A stretch of 64,000 nucleotides of DNA, taken from assembly GCA_903847975.1 (NCBI GenBank), contig CAINFC010000101.1, positions 1 to 64,000 on the forward strand, written 5' to 3'. Both the position numbers and the translations under genes were made by a program. Positions 9,325-60,859 of the stretch are shown in pieces. This stretch comes from an uncultured Acidobacteriota bacterium. Lineage in GTDB: Bacteria > Acidobacteriota > UBA6911 > CAINFC01. Numbering within the stretch: position 1 is the first letter of the stretch; each line of letters begins with the position of its first letter. The notes beneath the pieces are model-generated. The model made no database searches. It was not told the origin of the DNA and saw only the letters and a program-made list of their open reading frames with translations.

Positions 9325-12300
9325 CTAGAAGCTAATCTTGATGGTGAACTGGCCGGAGCGAGAACCGCCGGCAGCGTACTGCGGACTTACACTGCCTCCC
9401 TGGTTGCTGAAGAAGCTGCCGCTCAGGTAATCGTTCTGCGTCATGGTCGCGTATCCGAAGCCGCCGTAGACCGGGTGCCAATATACGTCATTGGCGCCGA
9501 GGGCCAGGTTCGGGTGATTGAATACATTAAAATATTCCACCCGCAAATCCATCTTGACCCGATCGGTCAGGTCGAACCGCCGGCGGAGCGCCAGGTCCGC
9601 CTGAAACAGCGGAAAGTTCCGGATGCTGTTCCGTATGAGGGTTCCCGGCCGATTGTCGGCCGGCATGGCGAAAGCCGCCGAATTCAAATGCCTGCCGCCG
9701 GGAGCGTTGGCGTCGGAAATCCATATGGGCTGGCCGGAAACCAGGTCCGGCCGGATCCTCTGATAAACGCCGTTCCACAGGACCGTCGATAGGGCAACCA
9801 CGTTAATGGGGAGACCCTGGCGCGCCATTACGATTCCGTCCAGCGCCCAGCCCTTCAGCAGGGTGCGGCCTGCCCTCCGGTTCCCGGGAGAGGGCAATTC
9901 CCAGGAGAATGCGCCCGCAAGGCTGTGGCGAACGTCGAAATCGGAATATCCCTCATTGATCCCGACGTCCGGAAGATCGCTCACCCTGGTTGCGCCGAGG
10001 TCCGGGGTGGTGCTTACATAATCGGTCGACCGGGTGTCGGTTCCCCTGGCCAGCGTGTAGGAGAGCAACATCTGCAGACCGCGCGATCTGCGCCGCTGGA
10101 AGGACACCTGCAAAGAATCGTACCGCGACCGGTCCGCGTTCCGGAACGCAGTTATATACCAGTTCACGCCGTTGTCGGCAGGCCGGAGGTTGTCGCCGCG
10201 GATGAGATCCTGCCCCTTGGATGCGATCCAGGCGACGCTAATGCTCTGGCTCGTGCTCAACTCGCGATCGAAGCTGACATTCCAATGGTACGACCGCGGC
10301 GTCTTCAGGCCGGGATCGAAGGCCTTTACAAACGGGGATGCATTCGCCGTGGGCTTCAGGGCGAATGCCGGCGCCTGGAATTGGGTCGGATCGCTGTAGG
10401 TAAACGGTACGTTCACCATGGTTTGCCGGGAACGCATCCACGGAAAAGTGGACGTTGCTGTCTCGCCCAACACGCTGGGAGTGCCGAGGTCGAAAAAAAC
10501 TCCGGTGCCTCCGCGCAGCACCGTCCTGGATGTTATCTGCCAGGCCGCACCGACCCGTGGCGCGAAATTGGCGTATTGTGTATGCCACAGAGGAGTGCCG
10601 GCGGGTGCGAGTCCGAGTGTTTGCGTATCGAAGACTCCCTGCATGGCATAGACGGGAGTCTCGGTCGCGGATGAGGGAGGCGGGTTGATCTCCCAGCGCA
10701 GGCCGTAGGTCATGGTCAGGCGGTTCGATAGCCTCCAGCTGTCCTGCACAAACGTGGAGTAGTTGCCCAATGCGAGGGTGTTGCCGCCCCCAGCGGCGCA
10801 AAAGCAAAATGCAATGGTGCCGGCCTGCAGGTCCGAGTAACTGGCATAGAGCGCAATGCTGTTCTTGGTAAAAGACGGGCTTGGCCTCAGGCCGCGCCAG
10901 TCGAAGCCGAATCGGATGCTGTGCCTCCCCGCCGTCCACGAGAAGGTATCCACGAAGTGGAGCTGCCTCTGCACATTGTCGGAAAATTGGCCCGCCCGGA
11001 TCATGAAGCCGGTTGCGGTCCCGAGGACATTCCCATATATTTGCGTGTCCTTCGAGCTGAAGCCCGCCGGGTAGAGGACGTTCTCCGGCGGAATCACCGC
11101 GCCATAGAACGGCACGGCATATTGGAATTGCCCGGCGATGTTGCGACTCCAGTTGGCACGAAAGTCATTGAGCCTGTTCCCGTCGATGGAATAGGTGGCC
11201 CCTATGGTCAGGGTTTCGATATCCGATGTATTCTTTTGCCGGCTCGCATCGGAAAAGCCGGAGATCGAGTTCGAAGGCGCGTGATTATAGCGCACAAACG
11301 TGTTGAGGCTTTGGGTCGGGCTGTGGTCCACGCGCAGGCTGATGGCATCCTGCGTTACCGGAAGGGAAGTGTTCATGGTCAATGGCGCGCTGAAACCGTC
11401 GGGATTCACCGGGCCGTCCGGAATAGGGCTCGAATTGACAAACGGTTTCCAGACCGATGCCATTTTCGCCCTGGCGGCTGCCGTAAAAAAGTTGGCCGTC
11501 TCCGTGTGCGGCTGGCGCAGGCGCAACCCCTCATAGGAGAAGAAGAAGAAGAGCTGGTCTTTCCGGATGGGGCCTCCCAGGGTGATGCCGAAATTGTTCT
11601 GGCGCAGCGCCGGCTTGGCCTCAGGCACCCGGTTGAAGTAATCCCTGGCATCGAAAATATCGTTCCGCAGGTAGTCGAAAACGCTGCCGTGAAAAGCCCG
11701 GGTGCCGGACCGGGTGACAATCGAAACCTGGGCGCCCGGCATGCGACCGAATTCGGGTGCGTAGGTCGATGTCTGGATGCGAAATTCCTGCATCGCATCC
11801 ACGGAAATGAGACCGTTGGTGCCTCCGGTAATAGACCACGCCGGCGTGGAACCGCTGGTCCCGGTGCCCATGCCGGACCCGGTGCCGGATCCGAAGTTGG
11901 CGCTGACGCCGTCAATCATGAAGTAGTTGGCGTTGGTACGCTGTCCGTTGACGCTGAACTGACCCTGGTTCCCGGGATTGGCGACCGCAAGCACGATTCC
12001 CGGGGTCATGGCAAGAAGCATCTGAAAACTGCGGCCGTTCAGCGGCGCATTGGCGACAAACTCACGGTCAATCACCAGGCCGATCGCGGGTGTGGTCTGC
12101 AGGAGCGGAGTTGTTTCGGACTCCACCGTCACTTCCGTGGAGATCGTGCCGACGTCCAGGATAATGTCGAGCGCCGCGCGATCGGCTGCATTCAGGACAA
12201 CTCCGGTTTTGGCCAGCGAATGAAAACCGGAGGCGCTGACCGTCACCCGGTAAAGCCCCGGATTCAGAACCGGAATCCAGTAGGCACCCCGGTCATTGGA

Positions 12301-51721: not shown

Positions 51722-52030
51722 ATGACCACCGATGAAACCGTGCTCCAGGCTTCGGCGTTGTTCCTCCATACCTTTCTCCTCCAGTTGCGAGTCCTCTCCC
51801 AAGCTATTACCGGGTTGGATCAGAAAACCCAGGAGGTAACCCAGCGCCAAACCTGATGACGGAAGTAACCGCAGGTTCAACGGAGCCGGTGTCGTCCTGG
51901 CCCCGCGCCTCCAGGCCATCCTCGGAGACAATCGTCAACGCATTACTTCCGCGCGGCAACGGGTCGACTATCCCAGCATTGCTCCCGTCTTAGACCGCCG
52001 CGGTAACCCTTTCCATACCCGCCGCCTGTC
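51722..52030 (+). pseudogene. IS110-family transposase remnant
   Basis: Two adjacent plus frames together read like the C-terminal half of an IS110 transposase. The first (51722 onward) gives the helical DETVLQASALFLHTFLLQLR and LSQAITGLDQKTQEVTQ, then a stop. The second, shifted by one base, gives GAGVVLAPRLQAILGDNRQR, then ITSARQRVDYPSIAPVLDRR. This is the transposase_20 pattern (L-P-G-x-G-x-V-L-A-x-R-L ... Y-x-G-I-A-P-V). It lacks the N-terminal DEDD nuclease half and has stops and a frameshift, so it is dead. It lies at the edge of the lasso cluster. Confidence 0.65.
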
Positions 52031-53279
52031 AAAACGACAGAAGGGTGCGGAAGTCCACAGAACGGCAGAAGGCGATCCTATTAAGACAGAGATCCCGGAA
52101 CGCAGTTTCTCCCAAGGGAAGATCGTGGGGCTTCTGCATCGTTTCACCATCCCAGACCGTGTTGGCTTCCAGGATCGCCGGCCCCTGTTCGGTAATCGCC
52201 ACACCCCAGCCTAATGAAAAATAACCGGCATAATGCGTATGGGCCCGCATTGCGGTCTCCAGCGCCTCCTTCCAGAAGGTAAGAATTCTCCCGGCGATCG
52301 GCGCGCCGGTATCGGGGTGGCGGACATATTCCGCTCCGGTCCATCCGCACGGAACCGCTCTTCCCGGCACACCGGAAATCCCGTCCACCGGAGCAAGCAC
52401 AAAGTCGGGTCTTAACGTCTTCTTCCCGATCGGGAGGATCGGCACACTCATCAGATGCCGTATCATATCGGCTTCCGCACAAAGGGTGACGATTCGGAGG
52501 AGGACCAGGGCATGCTCCCCAATGGGCTCCGGCGTAGGATGGTTTTTGACTCTCCGCTGCGCGATGATCGCCCCCTTCTCTTGGGTGGCATTCCTCCGGA
52601 TATGTCGGATCAGGCCGGCCGAATCAAGCAGGAAATCCTGATACAAGTATTTCCCTTGGCTGTATATCCATTGTTCCACGCCTCTGTCTCTGGATCCGTT
52701 TGCCGGCTTGAGAATTAAATCCTCCGACGGCAGGGAATCGGCCTGCGGTCAATCACCGGCCATCATTGCGTGGTTCCCCTGCTCGCTCATACCGGCATAA
52801 ACCGCAGGCACCGGAACGGAAAATTGCCGACAGGTTTCGTAAAACCTTCGCTTGTCGTTCACTCTATCCCCGCAGCTGTGATTCAGGGCGGGCAGCAAAA
52901 TCCGAGCCTCATGGCCGAAGAGATATTTTTCCGTCCGGTCCTTATTGGTTCCGACAAAAAGTTGGTACCGGTAATGGTTCAGCGGTGTCGCGTTTTTAGA
53001 CAAAGAAAGGGCAAAGCATTCCAGCGCCAATCCCAACGCGCTGCCGGGCTTCCTGGTTTTCACCGTTTTTCCGAATCGACCGGCAAAGTAGAACGAAAGA
53101 ACCAAGGCCAGAATCGGCCAGGAAAGAAAAATCATGGCCCGGACCGTCTTGATCCAGCCATCTCTCTCCGCCAAACCTTTCCGCAAAATGTAGAGCCGAA
53201 GCCGGTAGCCGGGCTTGGCCCTGTTCCGGAATTCCGAACAGAAATACGGCAGGCTTTCGCTCTGGTACCGGCACAGCAT
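52029..53279 (-). pseudogene. Sugar-transfer-associated ATP-grasp-like gene with in-frame TGA
   Basis: One frame runs from ATG 53279 to a stop at 52029 (about 417 codons) with a single TGA at 52749-52751. The upstream part has a membrane-proximal N-terminus, then LNHYRYQLFVGTNKDRTEKY and CGDRVNDKRRFYETCRQFSV. The downstream part continues without loss (LPSEDLILKPANGSRDRGVE, GAIIAQRRVKNHP, FVLAPVDGISGVPGRAVPCG, GWGVAITEQGPAILEANTVWDG). The pattern is that of the ATP-grasp family linked with sugar transfer (PF14397 type), with the ATP-binding Lys in LILKPANGS. It starts 57 bases after the cyclase gene and looks like the last gene of the lasso operon. Confidence 0.72.
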
Positions 53280-53335
53280 TCTTCCCCAATAGTCAACAAG
53301 TTAAACCGCTTTGGGCATCTTTTCCTGGCGGCCCG

Positions 53336-55147
53336 TTACGGAATCCGGGCCGATCGGGATCGTTCGATTGCCTCCTGCAAGTCCCAGCAGTAGCCGAGGA
53401 TTCTCCGCAGGTTGCCTCTCCGGTTCGGATCCTTCGAACGCAGCGCTTTTTCGACTTCAGAAAAATTCAAATAGGCTGAAAATAGCCCTCGGTCCAATTT
53501 CCCCATCCTTTGAGCCAATGCTTCGCATTCGGCGTCCGCACTCTTCTCCCCGAATTCCATTCTGGCGGGGTCGTCCTTATGCGCATAATCGCAAATCTCT
53601 TTCGGCAGGATTCCGGCAAAGGCTTTTCGGTACACATACCGGTTGATACCCCTTTTCAGGAATATCGGCGTCGGCATGGATACGGCCAGGTCAACGACTC
53701 GAAAGTCCAATAGCGGAAACACATAGCGGATATCGCTTTCCGCGCCCTTTTGGGCGCTGAGTTCCGTTCGGGTCTGGATATTTCCGGACTCGATATGTTT
53801 CCGGAGATCGATGTTGAAATAGAGCCGTTTCTTCGGGTGACTTTTTTTCATCGCCTTGACCCCAGGCTTCCGGACGACATCCCAATGATTCCGGGGGAGG
53901 TCGCCGGTAAAATTCCGGCGCCTGACAGAGGAAAAGACCGTGCTGCCCAGAAGAACTCTCAGGAACTTTAGAGGAGAGCCGCCGGCCGCTGCGGCTGCCT
54001 CCTGCAGAAATGCCGAGAAATAGCCGTTGACCCAAAGTTCGTACAGATTGGCTCTATGGCTGATGCCCTGATCTCCCCCCCACCCGGAAAGGACATAGCG
54101 CACCCCCTGCCGGACCATCCACCTTTGTTCCTGCTCCAGCGGATACAGAGGGCCTTCTTCCCCCGGCAGGAACGGATCGAAATACCGGCAGCTCAGCCCC
54201 TCCTGCCGGCAAGGCAGCTCCACCAGCCTTCTTTCGTCCCGCTCCAGCATGGCCACCGCTTCGAAATCGGGAGACCAGGAAAAAAGGGGCATTCGGTAAT
54301 TTATCTTCTGCAGCTCCCGGTTGGCTAAAGCAACCACAACAGAGGAGTCCAGCCCGCCGCTGAGCTGCGCCCCGGCGCCGTCGCCGATGGCCTCCAGCCG
54401 GATGCGGACGGCATCCCGGACGATTTCGAAGACCTCCTGGCTATATTGCTCCTCGGTTTTGTCTTTTCCCTTTTTGGCACAGAACGACCAGTAACGGTAT
54501 TTTGTCAACTGTCCCCCGGCCACTTCGAGGATATGAGCCTGCTCCAGCTTTTTCACCTGCGCAAAGCCGGTATGCACCGGATCCAAAACAATTTCATTGC
54601 ACAGGACGGCATAAAGCTTTCCTTCATCCGGCGTTTTTGGCACGTAAGGCAGGGCGAGAATGGCATCCAGGTCCGACGCGAAAACAAACACCGCAGGTCT
54701 GTGAAAAAAGAAAAGCGGTCTTACCCCCAGGTGATCGCGGGCGAGGATCAGCCTTTGCGAAGCCTTCTCCCATAGCACAAATGCGAAGTCGCCATTGATA
54801 TGGCGGGGGCAGTTCTTGCCCCATTTGCGGTAGGCACCCAGGATCAGTTCCGGATCCGATGGATTTCTGCCCCCGGCCGGGTGCAGCTCCCGGAGAAGCG
54901 ATTCGCGATTATAAACCAATGCATCCGCCGCGATCACGCGGTCCGCTTCCCGATCGACAAATACCGCCTGCTCCGCTTGGGTGTGCCTGCTCAGCCCATC
55001 GAGGCAGCAACCTAAAGCCAGGCTCCCATCCGCATGAATTCGCTGCGCACGTCTTCCGTAAGGACGCAAGCGGTCCATCATCAGACGGATGTGGCTTAAA
55101 TCCACCGGCAGGCCGTCCAGCTGCCAGATACCGAAAACCGCACTCAT
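53336..55147 (-). CDS. Lasso peptide macrolactam synthetase (C protein, asparagine-synthetase-like)
   Basis: A 603-residue AsnB-like protein. The glutaminase-like N-terminal domain begins MSAVFGIWQLDG, so residue 2 is Ser and the ammonia-releasing Cys is missing, as expected for lasso cyclases. It then shows HINGDFAFVLWEKASQRLIL and ARDHLGVRPLFFF. The synthetase domain has the ATP pyrophosphatase loop QLSGGLDSSVVVALAN, then GWGGDQGIS and the C-terminal RYVFPLLDFRVVDLAVSMPT. It is predicted to adenylate the Glu9 side chain of the core peptide and close the ring onto Gly1. It lies downstream of the precursor gene and its terminator, on the same strand. Confidence 0.9.
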   Translation of the reverse strand: MSAVFGIWQLDGLPVDLSHIRLMMDRLRPYGRRAQRIHADGSLALGCCLDGLSRHTQAEQAVFVDREADRVIAADALVYNRESLLRELHPAGGRNPSDPELILGAYRKWGKNCPRHINGDFAFVLWEKASQRLILARDHLGVRPLFFFHRPAVFVFASDLDAILALPYVPKTPDEGKLYAVLCNEIVLDPVHTGFAQVKKLEQAHILEVAGGQLTKYRYWSFCAKKGKDKTEEQYSQEVFEIVRDAVRIRLEAIGDGAGAQLSGGLDSSVVVALANRELQKINYRMPLFSWSPDFEAVAMLERDERRLVELPCRQEGLSCRYFDPFLPGEEGPLYPLEQEQRWMVRQGVRYVLSGWGGDQGISHRANLYELWVNGYFSAFLQEAAAAAGGSPLKFLRVLLGSTVFSSVRRRNFTGDLPRNHWDVVRKPGVKAMKKSHPKKRLYFNIDLRKHIESGNIQTRTELSAQKGAESDIRYVFPLLDFRVVDLAVSMPTPIFLKRGINRYVYRKAFAGILPKEICDYAHKDDPARMEFGEKSADAECEALAQRMGKLDRGLFSAYLNFSEVEKALRSKDPNRRGNLRRILGYCWDLQEAIERSRSARIP

Positions 55148-55451: not shown

Positions 55452-55493
55452 AAAAAAGCGCAGAGCGTCAGGTTTGTCAAACCTGTCGCTCTG
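55452..55493 (-). terminator. Strong hairpin plus U-tract after the lasso precursor gene
   Basis: The arms 55461-55475 and 55479-55493 (CAGAGCG-T-CAGGTTT and AAACCTG-T-CGCTCTG) pair with one mismatch around a three-base loop. On the minus strand the hairpin is followed by CGCTTTTTTGA, with six T at 55452-55457. It lies 29 bases after the precursor stop. This is a textbook intrinsic terminator. Partial read-through would give more precursor than enzyme mRNA, as in other lasso operons. Confidence 0.85.
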
Positions 55494-55522: not shown

Positions 55523-55687
55523 TTAGCTGCCTGATTTCACATACCCAAAAAAAGCATTCTCATACGTCTTTGGTATTTTGCCGCCTTCCGTTTTGCCAAG
55601 CGGCAGTTCCTGCACCGTCGGAGAGGTCCATTCTTTTTTCCGTTTTTTGTTTCCATTTTCCTGCGCAGCAGTCCATTCGCTATTCAT
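55523..55687 (-). CDS. Lasso peptide precursor (A), 54 residues
   Basis: ATG 55687 is preceded by GAGGAGA at nine bases. The leader is about 34 residues, Lys-rich (KKRKKEW). Counting back from the core, it carries Trp at -15, Pro at -12, Val at -10 and Thr at -2, the spacing of paeninodin-type leaders (Y/W-x2-P-x-L ... T-x). The predicted core starts at Gly35: ring GGKIPKTYE, then tail NAFFGYVKSGS. Glu9 allows a Gly1-Glu9 macrolactam. Phe12, Phe13 and Tyr15 are candidate plugs. The C-terminal Ser20 is the residue phosphorylated by HPr-kinase-like enzymes in paeninodin-type systems. It lies between the B1 gene and the cyclase gene, and is followed by a terminator. The only alternative is a chance ORF, which the combined motifs make unlikely. 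Confidence 0.88.
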   Translation of the reverse strand: MNSEWTAAQENGNKKRKKEWTSPTVQELPLGKTEGGKIPKTYENAFFGYVKSGS

Positions 55688-56000
55688 TTTGGTGTCTCCT
55701 CAATTTCTTCGTTATTCGTATACTGAATTTGCGAAAAAAACTATTTCGGCCGGTCGGCTCCCGGTTTTCAAGGCCTAAATTTTTTCCCGGAACAGTCGAA
55801 ACCGGCGATCCGGGCGAAGAAAAAGAAGCCGATTCTCGGCCGGCGTGCAGGAATGCGAGCCGCTATTCCGCTGTCGTGCCACCGCACACACCGAACCGGT
55901 CGTGTCTGCCGGTCGACGGAAATATTACCATGCAATTCTCTTTTTCCGATTTCTTTTCGAGCTAGCAGGTAAAATCGACCGCTGGCATATGCGGCCGGAT
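55688..56000 (-). promoter_or_regulatory. Intergenic region upstream of the lasso precursor gene
   Basis: About 310 bases with no convincing gene. A 78-codon minus frame here has random-looking Arg/Phe composition. Close to the precursor the sequence becomes AT-rich (TTTTTTTCGCAAATTCAGTATACGAATAACG on the minus strand, cited in parts). It has a TATACG-type -10 candidate about 35 bases before the start, so a dedicated precursor promoter is plausible. I searched for a B2 peptidase (Cys-His-Asp transglutaminase fold) here and did not find one. Confidence 0.3.
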
Positions 56001-56288
56001 TCAAACCTCCTGCTCCACCAGGCCCTGGTCGTAGATCTCATTCAAAAACGTCAGCGTTTCCTGCAGGCAACGCTCTTCCCCCACCTCATATTGGTCCGTC
56101 AGGCTTTTGACGATCGCCCGCACTGTTACCGGCTTCTCTATCAGGGACCATATGGCTCCGCCAGTCGGCCCCAGATGGTAATACTTTTCCGTGGAAATAC
56201 TCATTACTACCGTATCTCCGTCCAAATCCGCGGAGACGATCTCCTGGTTTCGCCGCACAATGGAGTCTGCTTTTATTCCTTCTCTCAT
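56001..56288 (-). CDS. PqqD-like leader-binding protein (lasso B1/RRE)
   Basis: The 95-residue product from ATG 56288 has the PqqD/RiPP recognition element pattern. It begins IKADSIVRRNQEIVSADLDG, continues TVVMSISTEKYYHLGPTGGA, IWSLIEKPVTVRAIVKSLTD and VGEERCLQETLTFLNEIYDQ, and ends GLVEQEV. Such proteins bind the leader through a winged helix-turn-helix and deliver the precursor to the processing enzymes. AGAAAGGA lies just before this ATG; in-frame ATGs at 56294 and 56321 are alternatives. It follows the sulfotransferase gene with a short gap. The protease partner (B2), often encoded next, is not seen. Confidence 0.9.
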   Translation of the reverse strand: MREGIKADSIVRRNQEIVSADLDGDTVVMSISTEKYYHLGPTGGAIWSLIEKPVTVRAIVKSLTDQYEVGEERCLQETLTFLNEIYDQGLVEQEV

Positions 56289-56324
56289 TTGCATCCTTTC
56301 TCGTTTTCCGGTTCTTTCCATTAT

Positions 56325-57182
56325 TTAAAATACAATTTCACCCCGGCGATCGAGGTACCCGAATTTCTCCATAACCTCTCTATGCGCCCGGACCAGCTGC
56401 CCCACTTGCCGCTCCGTCAGATGGAGGCGCCAGTCACCCACCTCACCCCGGCGGAAAAAGGCCTGGACCATGTAAGGCTTCTCGTGGAAGCCCTCCTTTT
56501 TTTCCGCCTCCTGCAGCTTGGCGAAAACGGACGCATCTACCGCCCGGCGGACGGTCTCCGCGTCATAATCCAGTTCCATAAAGTTTGCTGCCGCCGTAAA
56601 AGTTTCCAAAGGATTGAGCTTCATGTCCTCAAAGCGGATGGTATGAACCGGCAGCTCCCCTGCGCCGGTCCAGCTTTGCACATGTCCACTCCAGGTCAGC
56701 AGCTTCTGCCGCAACTGATTTGCCAGTCTTCTTTCGTTCCGGCAGAAAACATATTCCGGGTCTCCCATGTTGTTGATGGTGGTGTCCAAATCGCATGAGG
56801 AATGGTTCGAAAAGGAAACCGCCACATCCAGGGGATTTCGCAGGAAGTAAATGGCTTTTGCGTTCCGCGTACCCAGAAGCGGACTCCCGTCATCCAGATA
56901 GGTGAAGGCATCGCGGACCTTGATGTAAAGATTGCCGGGTAGCCCTTCGGCAAGATGGTTATAGGCCGCCGGCCTCAGCCGGTCGATTTCCTCCGGTGTC
57001 AGGTTGGAAGCCTCGATGCCGGTCATGCTGTCCAAAATGATTCTGGAACTGAAAATGCCGTCGGTATGTAGATGGTTGATGCTGACCGTTTCCTCTTTTT
57101 CCTTCAGAAGGTTGGATAGAAAGGTACGAAACCAGGTGTTCCCTGATTTAGGATAAGAGGCCAGCCATATTATCTTAGCCAC
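56325..57182 (-). CDS. Sulfotransferase in the lasso peptide cluster
   Basis: A 285-residue cytosolic-type sulfotransferase starting at GTG 57182. The 5'-phosphosulfate loop is WLASYPKSGNTWFRTFLSNL (Lys12/Ser13), and the 3'-phosphate region is AIYFLRNPLDVAVSFSNHSS. The dimer/KTVE-like end appears as VQAFFRRGEVGDWRLHLTER. PAPS-dependent sulfation of a hydroxyl (Ser, Thr or Tyr) is the family reaction. The core peptide offers Tyr8, Tyr15, Thr7, Ser18 and Ser20. It overlaps the end of the second HPr-kinase-like gene by eight bases, so it belongs to the lasso operon. Confidence 0.88.
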   Translation of the reverse strand: MAKIIWLASYPKSGNTWFRTFLSNLLKEKEETVSINHLHTDGIFSSRIILDSMTGIEASNLTPEEIDRLRPAAYNHLAEGLPGNLYIKVRDAFTYLDDGSPLLGTRNAKAIYFLRNPLDVAVSFSNHSSCDLDTTINNMGDPEYVFCRNERRLANQLRQKLLTWSGHVQSWTGAGELPVHTIRFEDMKLNPLETFTAAANFMELDYDAETVRRAVDASVFAKLQEAEKKEGFHEKPYMVQAFFRRGEVGDWRLHLTERQVGQLVRAHREVMEKFGYLDRRGEIVF

Positions 57183-58076
57183 GCCTGGCCATCTCCTCGA
57201 ACAGGCAATCTACTGTTTCTCCCACCGGCAGCGCTTCGGTATTGATTCTGCATGCGGCAAGCTTCGCCTGGCCGCCGGCGACCGCCCAATTTTTAAAATG
57301 CTCGATCTTGGCCGGCGTGCCTTCCGTCAGGGAAATGTTGCGTCCGTATTGATACATCTCCTTCAATTTATTCGCTCCTGAAACCGTATGGATTTCTACG
57401 CTTGCCCGGTTGGAGCTCTTCAGAAAGAAAATATGGGCTAAAGGCACCGGCTGCCGGCAAAACCGGTCCGCCACCGGGAACGCATATTTTTTTAACCCTT
57501 TTCGGATCGGGCGGTACGCCGCGGTATCTTTCTGCGCGGCAGTCAGGCCATCGTGCCATACGCCCAGCTGGGGCACCCCGGGCAATGCCACCGCCGCCCC
57601 TGTCCGGTCAAGGCTTACCGCACAGCTGTCATCGGCCAGCAGACGAAGGCCTCTGTCGTAGAGCTCCAGGGCAATGGCCGTTTTCCCCGCTCCGGAAAAA
57701 CCGCAGAAGAGCACGGCGCGGCCGCCGATTTCCGCCGCCGAGGCGTGAAAAACGGCGATCCCCCGCTGCTGAACGGCACAGGCCATTACGGAATCGAGGA
57801 GAAAAACGCGGATATCCTCTTCCGTGGCACCCGGAAAAGGCTCAATCGTCAACCGGGTTCCGCACTGCAGGTATACCTTGCGATCCCGTCCACGCGGAGA
57901 AGAATCTCCCGGTTGCCGGCCTGGCACCAGGGATTTTTTTGCTTCACCGTTTCGAGATTTTCCGGTGTTTTTCCCACTCGAATGGTAATGTCGGCTTCCT
58001 GGCCCCGGTCCTCCGCGCCGAAAAGCTCAGGCAGCCTAATTTCCGAATGGAGTCTTAGTCCGAAAAGACTATACAT
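57175..58076 (-). pseudogene. HPr-kinase-like lasso tailoring kinase, frameshifted (copy nearer the precursor)
   Basis: The start is ATG 58076 with GGGAAA upstream. The N-terminal part (MYSLFGLRLHSEIRLPELFG ... LLRVDGIARY) is in one frame, which stops near 57849. From about 57870 the next frame carries on (YLQCGTRLTIEPFPGATEED, AVFHASAAEIGGRAVLFCGF). It has Walker A GFSGAGKTA, LADDSCAVSLDRTG and the C-terminal region. Together they make about 300 residues, the normal length of HprK-like RiPP kinases. No homopolymer run sits at the break. The intact enzyme would use ATP to phosphorylate a Ser hydroxyl, by precedent the C-terminal Ser of the precursor. Confidence 0.75.
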
Positions 58077-58105
58077 TTTTCCCATTTAGCGGTTGGTGTT
58101 TCGTC

Positions 58106-59296
58106 TTATTTCCGTACCGGCTCTAACAGCCCGAGAAACGCAGCTACATGCGTCAATTCAAAGAGACGGTATTTTTCGAGCACAGCGCCAAGCGGGACAG
58201 CAAAACCATATCCATGTGCGGTCACCCTGCAAAGGCTGAAAAAAAGCCGGCCGGTCTCGACGGAATCCACCCTCCCGGAATGCAGTTCCATTCCCCAAAG
58301 AATGGTTCGAATCATCGCATACTTGACGATCAGACCGAGGATCATGGGGACATAGCGGTCTTGACGGCGATGGTAGAAACCATTGTAAAGATCGCTGACC
58401 AGGTAGTTTTCGATGTGGATGCGATAGGGTTGGCACAGCAAATCTGCCGGTCTGCAGCGTCCCAGGTTGTTATTGTTCTGGAGCGCATGCAGCCCAATGA
58501 CGGCTTGGCGAAGAAAATCCTGACAGAGAATGTCGAGTTTCCCCAGGAGCCATTTTACGACCTCTTCCAGGACACGGATTTGAATCAGATGCCCCACCCC
58601 GGCGGGAATAAAACCGGAACCCTCCTCCGAAGAAAGGATTCCGGGCAAACGATCATATTCTTTTCCTGCCAGCACTTTTTCCAGCCGTCCGGATTTGTAC
58701 AATAGAGTGATCAGCCTTTGCTCGATCATCAACTCCTCCGTCTGCAGGACTTCTATAAAGCGTTGCTCGATAGTGATGACATCATAGGGGAACGCTTTTT
58801 CCTCGGTCCGGGAATCAGGAATATCCTCGGCGGCGGGCAGGGCGACGATGGCAATTTTCCGGGCCGTCAGCAGATATCGGGCCACTTCGGGGCAGGAATT
58901 CCGCAACACGGCCTCCCGGACCCCGTTGATTTGCCGATAAGTTCTGGGAAAGGAACGACAGATGGCGGCAAGGCAGTGGTCGCCGTATTTTTTATGAATG
59001 AAGCACAATCGATCCTCGTCGAGAAAAGGACAAAAGCCCGTTTCTCCAAACCGGATCCAGGCATATTTCCAGGATGCAGTTTGCCCCTCCGGCAGCAGCT
59101 GAATACTTTTGAAACGCTCCGCAAAATCGACGTCCCGGATTTCCAGATATTACCGGTAAACCTCTTTCTCGATGAATACCTTCCAGGAGCGGCAGCAGTT
59201 GCTTTCGCACTGTGCAGCCGTGCACGAAAAATCCGGAAAATAATCGGCGCACCGCACCAGCAGGTTCCGGCTGCCATTATGGATTGCGTCGCTCAT
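58106..59296 (-). pseudogene. FliB-like lysine N-methylase gene with in-frame TAA, in the lasso operon
   Basis: One frame runs from ATG 59296 to 58106 (396 codons) with a single TAA at 59150-59152 (codon 49). Before it: FPDFSCTAAQCESNCCRSWK, the C-x4-C-x3-CC cluster of FliB. After it: FCPFLDEDRLCFIHKKYGDH, then CLAAICRSFPRTYRQINGVR and SCPEVARYLL. This is the C-x7-C-x9-C pattern typical of flagellin lysine N-methylases, which bind an Fe-S cluster and methylate Lys. The start lies within the end of the upstream kinase gene (20-base overlap). No flagellar gene is in the window, so the substrate may be the Lys-containing lasso precursor (inference). Confidence 0.75.
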
Positions 59297-60235
59297 CGGT
59301 CCCTGTCCACGGCTTGGATGCGCCTTCCCTCGGCTTGAAAAATTCCGGCAGGATAAGCGCGGCGATTTCATTTTCCTGATGACCATACTTCGGCCGCTCA
59401 ATCCGCAGCACCCGAACCTTTTCTGCGATACGGGTACATTGCTCAAAATGCCACTGTGCCGTTTTCAAACCTTGGGTCATGAACCGGCGGTAAGTATTCC
59501 GGTGAATCACGTGAATTTTTTCCACGCCGGTTATCTCTTTTCGCTGCAGTTCTTTCACCTCCTCGGGAACGAGGTCGCAAATGATTTTTAAAGGAACCGG
59601 CTCCGTTTGAAAGGAATCGATGTAGGCTACAGAAAATTTATCCCGATTTTTGGAAATGCTCTGCACGGAGCCGAGGCGGGTGTTCTCCGCCATGCGCTCC
59701 ACAGCGTCCCGACACAGCTTATTATGCGGGTATCCCGGGAAAGCAATCGGAAAACCCGTTTCATCCAGCCGGACAGGCAGTACGTCATCCGCAAGGATCC
59801 GGCAACCCTGCCGGAAAAAGGCCGCCGCCACGGTGGATTTGCCCGCACCGGACCTGCCGGTCAGCAGCAGGCCATTTCCGGCCAGGTTGATGCCGCTGCC
59901 GTGCATGGGAAGGATTTTCTTTTGATGAAGCAGGGCTCCCATGCAGGAGCCGAGAAGATACAACTTCACTTCCTCCAGGTTGGCCCCCTCATAGGGTTGG
60001 AACCGTACCTCCCGACCCTTTTCCACCCGGGAGCGGGAAATGCCTTCCTGATCGAGGTAAAAAAATCCGGCCCTATTTTCCGGTTGTGGATTTGAATGGC
60101 CTCCCCATCAAAAGCATCTGCTACCTCTCCCTTTTCGATCCGTACCTCCGGGTCGCCGGCAAAATCGTCCCGGATCAGTTCCGGAAAAAAGGTATCCGAC
60201 GCAATGGATAATCCGAACGCTTTATACCGATACAT
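59277..60235 (-). pseudogene. HPr-kinase-like gene, frameshifted at an A7 tract (upstream copy)
   Basis: The N-terminal frame starts at ATG 60235 (MYRYKAFGLSIASDTFFPEL ... QIHNRKIGPDFF). The continuation is in another frame (YLDQEGISRSRVEKGREVRF, HGSGINLAGNGLLLTGRSGA). It includes Walker A GRSGAGKST, LADDVLPVRLDETGFPIAFP and the C-terminal region. The break coincides with seven consecutive A at 60059-60065; six would keep the frame open. The combined length, about 319 residues, is normal. It is a paralogue of the kinase gene at 57.2-58.1 kb. It could be a true mutation, a phase-variable tract or a sequencing error. It overlaps the FliB-like gene start by 20 bases. Confidence 0.75.
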
Positions 60236-60317: not shown

Positions 60318-60859
60318 TTAATCCAGCGGTCGAAAAGGGGCCTGGAAGAAGTACAGGTGATCCGGCTTGTAAGTCATTTTCATTCCCTTGGTTCCCAGTC
60401 GGCATTGTAAACCATCTTGACGCTCTCGGCGACCAAATTCATGTGTGCCTCTGGGTGCAGACAAGCCGGGGAATGGTCAACTGCGTCAGATCCAGCCGAA
60501 TAGCGGTGATCGCCGGTCCCGGGATCGCTCCCGGCGCTGACGATGCCGCGCTCCATCAGGTGGCATGCCTTTTCTGCCACCCGCTCATCATCGACTGCGA
60601 GCCAGCTGCCGATGCGGACCAGGTTGTCCTTCTCCTGGATAAAAAAGGCGTTTCCCGCCATGTGCGTGGCGTCCAGGCAGACCGGAATGCCGTAGCTGTC
60701 GCAAAGCGCGCGAAGCGCCCTAATTTTGGCCATGTTAACCGGATGCCCGCCGGCCAGTTTACTGAACATTCCCGTCAAAATCAAGGTATCGATCCTTAAG
60801 GGAAGATTCATGTAATCCCGGCTGTACCCCATGAACAGGCCCAAGGGTAACGCCGTCAC
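60318..60859 (-). pseudogene. Tryptophanase/tyrosine phenol-lyase remnant
   Basis: Pieces of a PLP-dependent beta-eliminating lyase are in order: LAGGHPVNMAKIRALRALCD, YGIPVCLDATHMAGNAFFIQ, KDNLVRIGSWLAVDDERVAE, MERGIVSAGSDPGTGDHRY, HMNLVAESVKMVYN. A shifted frame follows, MTYKPDHLYFFQAPFRPLD, matching the C-terminus of tryptophanase. The N-terminal third and two internal blocks, including the PLP-lysine surroundings, are missing. It cannot be active. It lies immediately upstream of the lasso cluster genes on the same strand and marks the island border. Confidence 0.7.

Follow-up and report, generated by a model that had tools for sequence, protein, structure and literature searches.

A previously undescribed lasso-type precursor gene in a partly damaged HprK/sulfotransferase cluster without a B2 protease in cis

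Does the short minus-strand gene at 55523-55687 encode a lasso peptide precursor, and could the genes around it still turn that precursor into a product? In the window, by which we mean the whole 64 kb stretch of DNA that was analysed, the minus strand carries, in this order, HprK1, a FliB-like gene, HprK2, a sulfotransferase gene, B1, the precursor gene A, C and ATPgrasp_ST. Precursor A thus lies between B1 and C. The precursor, its signals and its open neighbours are:

55523-55687, minus strand: precursor A, ATG, 54 aa, TAA (leader 55687-55586, core 55585-55526, stop 55525-55523)
55696-55701, minus strand: Shine-Dalgarno sequence GAGGAG, 8 nt upstream of the precursor A ATG
55452-55493, minus strand: terminator-like hairpin with T6, 14-bp (two 7-bp arms), z -2.2, directly 3' of the precursor and before C
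56001-56321, minus strand: B1, PqqD-type RiPP recognition element, intact (NF033536 92.2 bits, cut-off 80)
53336-55147, minus strand: C, Cys-less asparagine-synthetase-like macrolactam synthetase, intact; it begins MSAVFG, so that Cys2 is absent, and SGGLDSS is kept
56325-57182, minus strand: sulfotransferase (ST), intact (PF00685 E 3e-27), with the PAPS-type motifs YPKSGNTW and RNPLDVAVS kept

The leader of precursor A is the 34-residue MNSEWTAAQENGNKKRKKEWTSPTVQELPLGKTE and its core the 20-residue GGKIPKTYENAFFGYVKSGS. Numbered back from the Gly1 boundary, the leader carries W-15, P-12, V-10 and T-2, while the core starts with a small residue (Gly1), has Glu9 at the ring position and ends in Ser. 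These leader residues, the 54-codon gene with its good Shine-Dalgarno sequence and its place between a PqqD-like gene and a Cys-less AsnB-like gene had all been reported in a preliminary description of this DNA and are confirmed here. The core masses given there (about 2149.08 linear and 2131.07 cyclised) agree with our recomputed monoisotopic values of 2149.084 for the linear form and 2131.074 minus water. A strict lasso-precursor motif, which combines [WY]xxPx[LVIM] with a correctly spaced T-x-[GA] after it and an acidic residue (Asp/Glu) at one of ring positions 7-9, has a single match in the real 64 kb window. Of 60 dinucleotide shuffles of the full 64 kb, 2 contained such a match, and shuffling the 8.6 kb cluster region 400 times produced none. 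The hairpin and T6 behind the gene would fit a higher level of transcription for the precursor than for the cyclase gene that follows.

The neighbours point in the same direction. The best PDB match of B1 is 9x90_B (E 4.6e-17), whose entry names it a lasso PqqD family chaperone. A crystal structure has been reported for PbaB1, a lasso B1 protein, in which E75 and Q79 form bonds with W-15 of the leader (PMC13381572); W-15 of precursor A stands in the same register, and we infer that this structure is 9x90. The best-scoring NCBIfam model for C is the lasso cyclase model NF033535, at 277 bits and under the cut-off of 525. The sulfotransferase is 52% identical to that of a cluster in another genome of the same phylum, G312. 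No transporter gene was recognised beside the window cluster.

Precursors of the same plan exist beside related clusters. Within the phylum, G038 and G066 carry HprK-ST-B1-B2-C, and G312 has HprK, ST, B1, B2 and C, its B2 lying next to C on the opposite strand. The candidate precursor of G312 (L104:5925-6113) reads ...REWVAPQRTRISSARYTY and then the core GKQINLSIESENSPGCYPPS; that of the Hyphomicrobiales UR115 plasmid (CP131057, L077:5988-6164) reads ...KVWNKPLIRDQSIRSLTE and then the core GKAFANPTEASPATGS. Both have a WxxP leader, Gly1, Glu9 and a terminal Ser, and both lie beside HprK, ST, B1 and C. G312 and UR115 are independent clusters with the same Gly1...Glu9...Ser core plan which, together with the adjoining B1, uphold the earlier assignment of the gene to the lasso type. 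The G312 cluster nevertheless differs from that of the window in its B2 beside C, its intact kinase, its core sequence and the positions of W (-16) and P (-13). UR115 also shares ATPgrasp_ST and the missing cis B2 with the window, whereas every one of its genes is intact, its C and ATP-grasp genes lie on the opposite strand and a 2OG oxygenase gene is nearby.

In an alignment of eight precursors, W and P are invariant and all but one of the peptides end in Ser (7/8). The compared peptides were chosen by the WxxP motif, which in part explains why W and P are common to them, whereas the G1/E9 spacing and the terminal Ser lie outside that filter. The idea that homologous precursors should occur beside related clusters holds for the plan of the peptide but not for a full-length homologue: across 396 genomes of the phylum none that was convincing emerged, the best match (E 0.016) being interrupted by a stop. 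One contig scan for relatives with C as query gave only two weak matches. Precursor A scores 12.6 bits against the paeninodin precursor model NF033524 (cut-off 27), matches no PDB sequence and has a core that was not found in the literature. We conclude that 55523-55687 on the minus strand is a genuine, previously undescribed precursor of a known, lasso-type kind.

Several further loci were seen alongside these clusters. ATPgrasp_ST is paired with a lasso-type cyclase gene in two phyla (L077 8395-11546 and window 52029-55147). The WxxP leader is certain outside Bacillota in annotated Alphaproteobacteria, and plasmids of Tistrella and Thalassobaculum (L094, L096, L081, L078) encode several unannotated or hypothetical Ser-terminated WxxP peptides near genes for HprK, sulfotransferase or PqqD; in some of these peptides the core has no Asp/Glu at positions 7-9. 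A Halopiger xanaduensis plasmid (L095 6995-9923) carries an archaeal B1-B2-C set with a YxxPxL peptide (9762-9923) that is missing from the gene table of the record. Directly behind HprK-ST-B1-B2-C of G038 (L033 9997-13405) lie, as judged by eye, a YcaO-like and a nitroreductase-like ORF. The genome of the window itself has a second RiPP-like locus on contig C123 (L012, 15-155 and 410-7789), with genes for a PqqD-TylF fusion, a glycosyltransferase, two HprK-like proteins, ST, B1 and an AsnB-like C. Its leader-like peptide KPWVKPEMTELGHEMTE shows the W-15/P-12/T-2/E-1 register of precursor A and is followed by the tail SSAPGGYSPG, which has no Asp/Glu at the ring positions. At this locus the reading frames of both HprK-like proteins, ST, B1 and C are uninterrupted, and B2 is absent nearby.

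When comparing the window with paeninodin of Paenibacillus dendritiformis (PadeA/B1/B2/C/K), the two share a WxxP leader, T-2, the plan of a 9-residue ring, a C-terminal Ser, a discrete PqqD-type B1 and an HprK-like kinase. The paeninodin kinase modifies its precursor at the C-terminal Ser (PMC5067487, PMC9266682), PadeK phosphorylating this residue of PadeA (PMC9266682). However, in the window the precursor and cyclase score under their family cut-offs, B2 lies outside the cluster, the kinases are broken, and sulfotransferase, FliB-like and ATP-grasp genes are present. Sulfotransferase genes have been reported in Firmicutes lasso clusters, with a putative role there (PMC8498205). Paeninodins are described as restricted to Bacillota (PMC13381572), whereas the host of the window apparently lies outside that phylum. 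C123 encodes a TonB-type receptor that, judged by eye, resembles those of Acidobacteriota. The 16S gene of the genome contains GATCCTGGCTCAGAATC, which we take to be the ACIDO31 primer site. On these two grounds the host is likely a member of the Acidobacteriota.

Taken together, the gene probably encodes a class II-type lasso precursor of the HprK/sulfotransferase, paeninodin-like sort. B1 would bind the leader through W-15 and P-12 and, by analogy with paeninodin, would present the precursor to a B2 protease cutting after Glu-1. C would then activate Glu9 and join it to the amine of Gly1, closing a 9-residue ring through which the tail NAFFGYVKSGS is predicted to thread. The C-terminal Ser would be the site of the kinase and perhaps of the sulfotransferase too.

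Whether this route can still run is a separate matter. The preliminary description missed the damage to the following genes:

59277-60235, minus strand: HprK-like kinase 1, frameshifted N-terminally (frame change between 60,116 and 60,068)
57175-58085, minus strand: HprK-like kinase 2, frameshifted N-terminally (frame change near 57,861-57,873)
58106-59296, minus strand: FliB-like flagellin lysine-N-methylase between the two HprK-like genes, with an in-frame TAA at 59150-59152
52029-53279, minus strand: ATPgrasp_ST protein (PF14397), with an in-frame TGA at 52749-52751
60380-60859, minus strand: beta-eliminating lyase fragment, outside the pathway (PF01212, profile positions 138-180 of 288 only)

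Searches by tblastn with intact HprK relatives split into two frames in each of the two kinase genes, although the catalytic motifs H/K/DD are kept in both bodies. The FliB-like gene scores 79.8 bits against NF038110 (cut-off 85), and the homology of the ATP-grasp gene to that of UR115 runs across the TGA (tblastn E 8e-34). Codon statistics agree with the damage, and the lyase fragment marks the upstream edge of the damaged stretch. We do not favour sequencing error as the cause of all lesions, as long ORFs elsewhere in the window are unbroken, and so are the cluster genes on two further contigs of the genome, C123 and C185. With four broken neighbour genes and no B2 in cis, the intact, tailored pathway assumed in the preliminary description is unsupported.

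No B2 gene was found in the window cluster with NF033537 and PF13471. We also considered whether the gap between B1 and A (55688-56000) or that between A and C conceals a B2, and rejected this: six-frame searches that read through stops gave no Transglut_core3/B2 match, and a coding signal was also absent. As the cluster is internal to a 142 kb contig, the missing B2 is not a contig-end artefact. The sole B2 of the genome (PF13471, NF033537) lies at C185:9872-10348, adjoining an NTP_transf_5 gene, and among the nine compared its nearest relative is the B2 of the G312 cluster (39.6% identity). This single protein would then serve the window cluster in trans and supply the cut after Glu-1. The UR115 plasmid offers a parallel, with one lone B2 about 226 kb from its cluster, among unrelated genes. 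Since that cluster is intact, absence of B2 in cis is by itself no proof of decay. A pseudomycoidin study cited in PMC9266682, going by its title, reportedly describes synthesis with neither leader nor leader peptidase; loss of B2 thus need not abolish every lasso product. A literature search for sulfated or B2-less lasso peptides returned nothing relevant.

Three other explanations of the locus have to be weighed against a working lasso precursor. It is scarcely credible that 55523-55687, between B1 and C, is an open frame by accident: at its length codon statistics cannot identify it as coding, but the motif statistics, Shine-Dalgarno sequence, hairpin, position and the plan common to other precursors all argue against chance. 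It is also improbable, though less so, that the precursor yields a linear or otherwise tailored phospho/sulfo-peptide similar to the linear polyphosphorylated peptides (LPP) of Bacillota, with which the window shares a discrete RRE, an HprK-like kinase and a [W/Y]xxP leader. Such a product would be in line with the related WxxP peptides beside HprK/PqqD genes that have no Asp/Glu at positions 7-9, such as GPSTFSSGQAAHVS (L078) and the C123 peptide. However, LPP clusters are without a cyclase and use an SpI-like peptidase (PMC13381572), whereas C of the window is present and intact, and Glu9 recurs with Gly1 in two other clusters.

A far stronger contender, to which we give somewhat less than an even chance, is that precursor, B1, ST and C survive from a dead cluster that has lost B2, is otherwise decaying and yields no mature peptide. 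Such a relic is supported by the two frameshifts and the two in-frame stops that fall within 8 kb, while long ORFs elsewhere in the window are unbroken, by the lyase fragment that borders the damaged genes and by the lack of B2, which the nearest relatives G312, G038 and G066 have beside C. Against it, none of A, B1, ST and C is interrupted, the precursor keeps an intact Shine-Dalgarno sequence and terminator hairpin, the genome encodes a B2 of the right type at another locus and the intact UR115 cluster likewise has none in cis. The cluster is probably decaying or reliant on B2 in trans, and its product may no longer be made.

If the lasso precursor is still matured, decay of the cluster favours the plain 2131.07 Da peptide or its sulfo form, which are the likely products, over a phospho or methyl form. 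Phosphorylation is doubtful; any phosphate might come from the HprK-like kinases of C123. Methylation of the peptide by the FliB-like protein, and with it the +14.02 shift proposed previously, is unsupported, since a stop interrupts the gene and tblastn did not recover it from the related clusters fetched.

More speculatively, and in our judgement rather unlikely, the window and UR115 could represent, in two phyla, a lasso-type subclass composed of HprK, sulfotransferase, B1, A, C and an ATP-grasp partner that has no protease of its own. Such clusters would borrow one stand-alone B2 from a distant locus of the same genome, which several clusters might share, and the ATP-grasp protein would catalyse an undescribed tailoring step.

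The locus adds an undescribed core to the HprK/sulfotransferase-type lasso peptides, and the WxxP leader, described as almost invariant among paeninodins, also accompanies HprK/sulfotransferase clusters in phyla other than Bacillota. The damage in the window cluster is at the same time a warning against predicting product masses from a precursor alone. The chief interest lies in the supply of the protease in trans, rather than in the core itself: the missing cis B2, paralleled in an intact plasmid cluster, raises the question of whether one stand-alone B2 could serve lasso clusters elsewhere in a genome.
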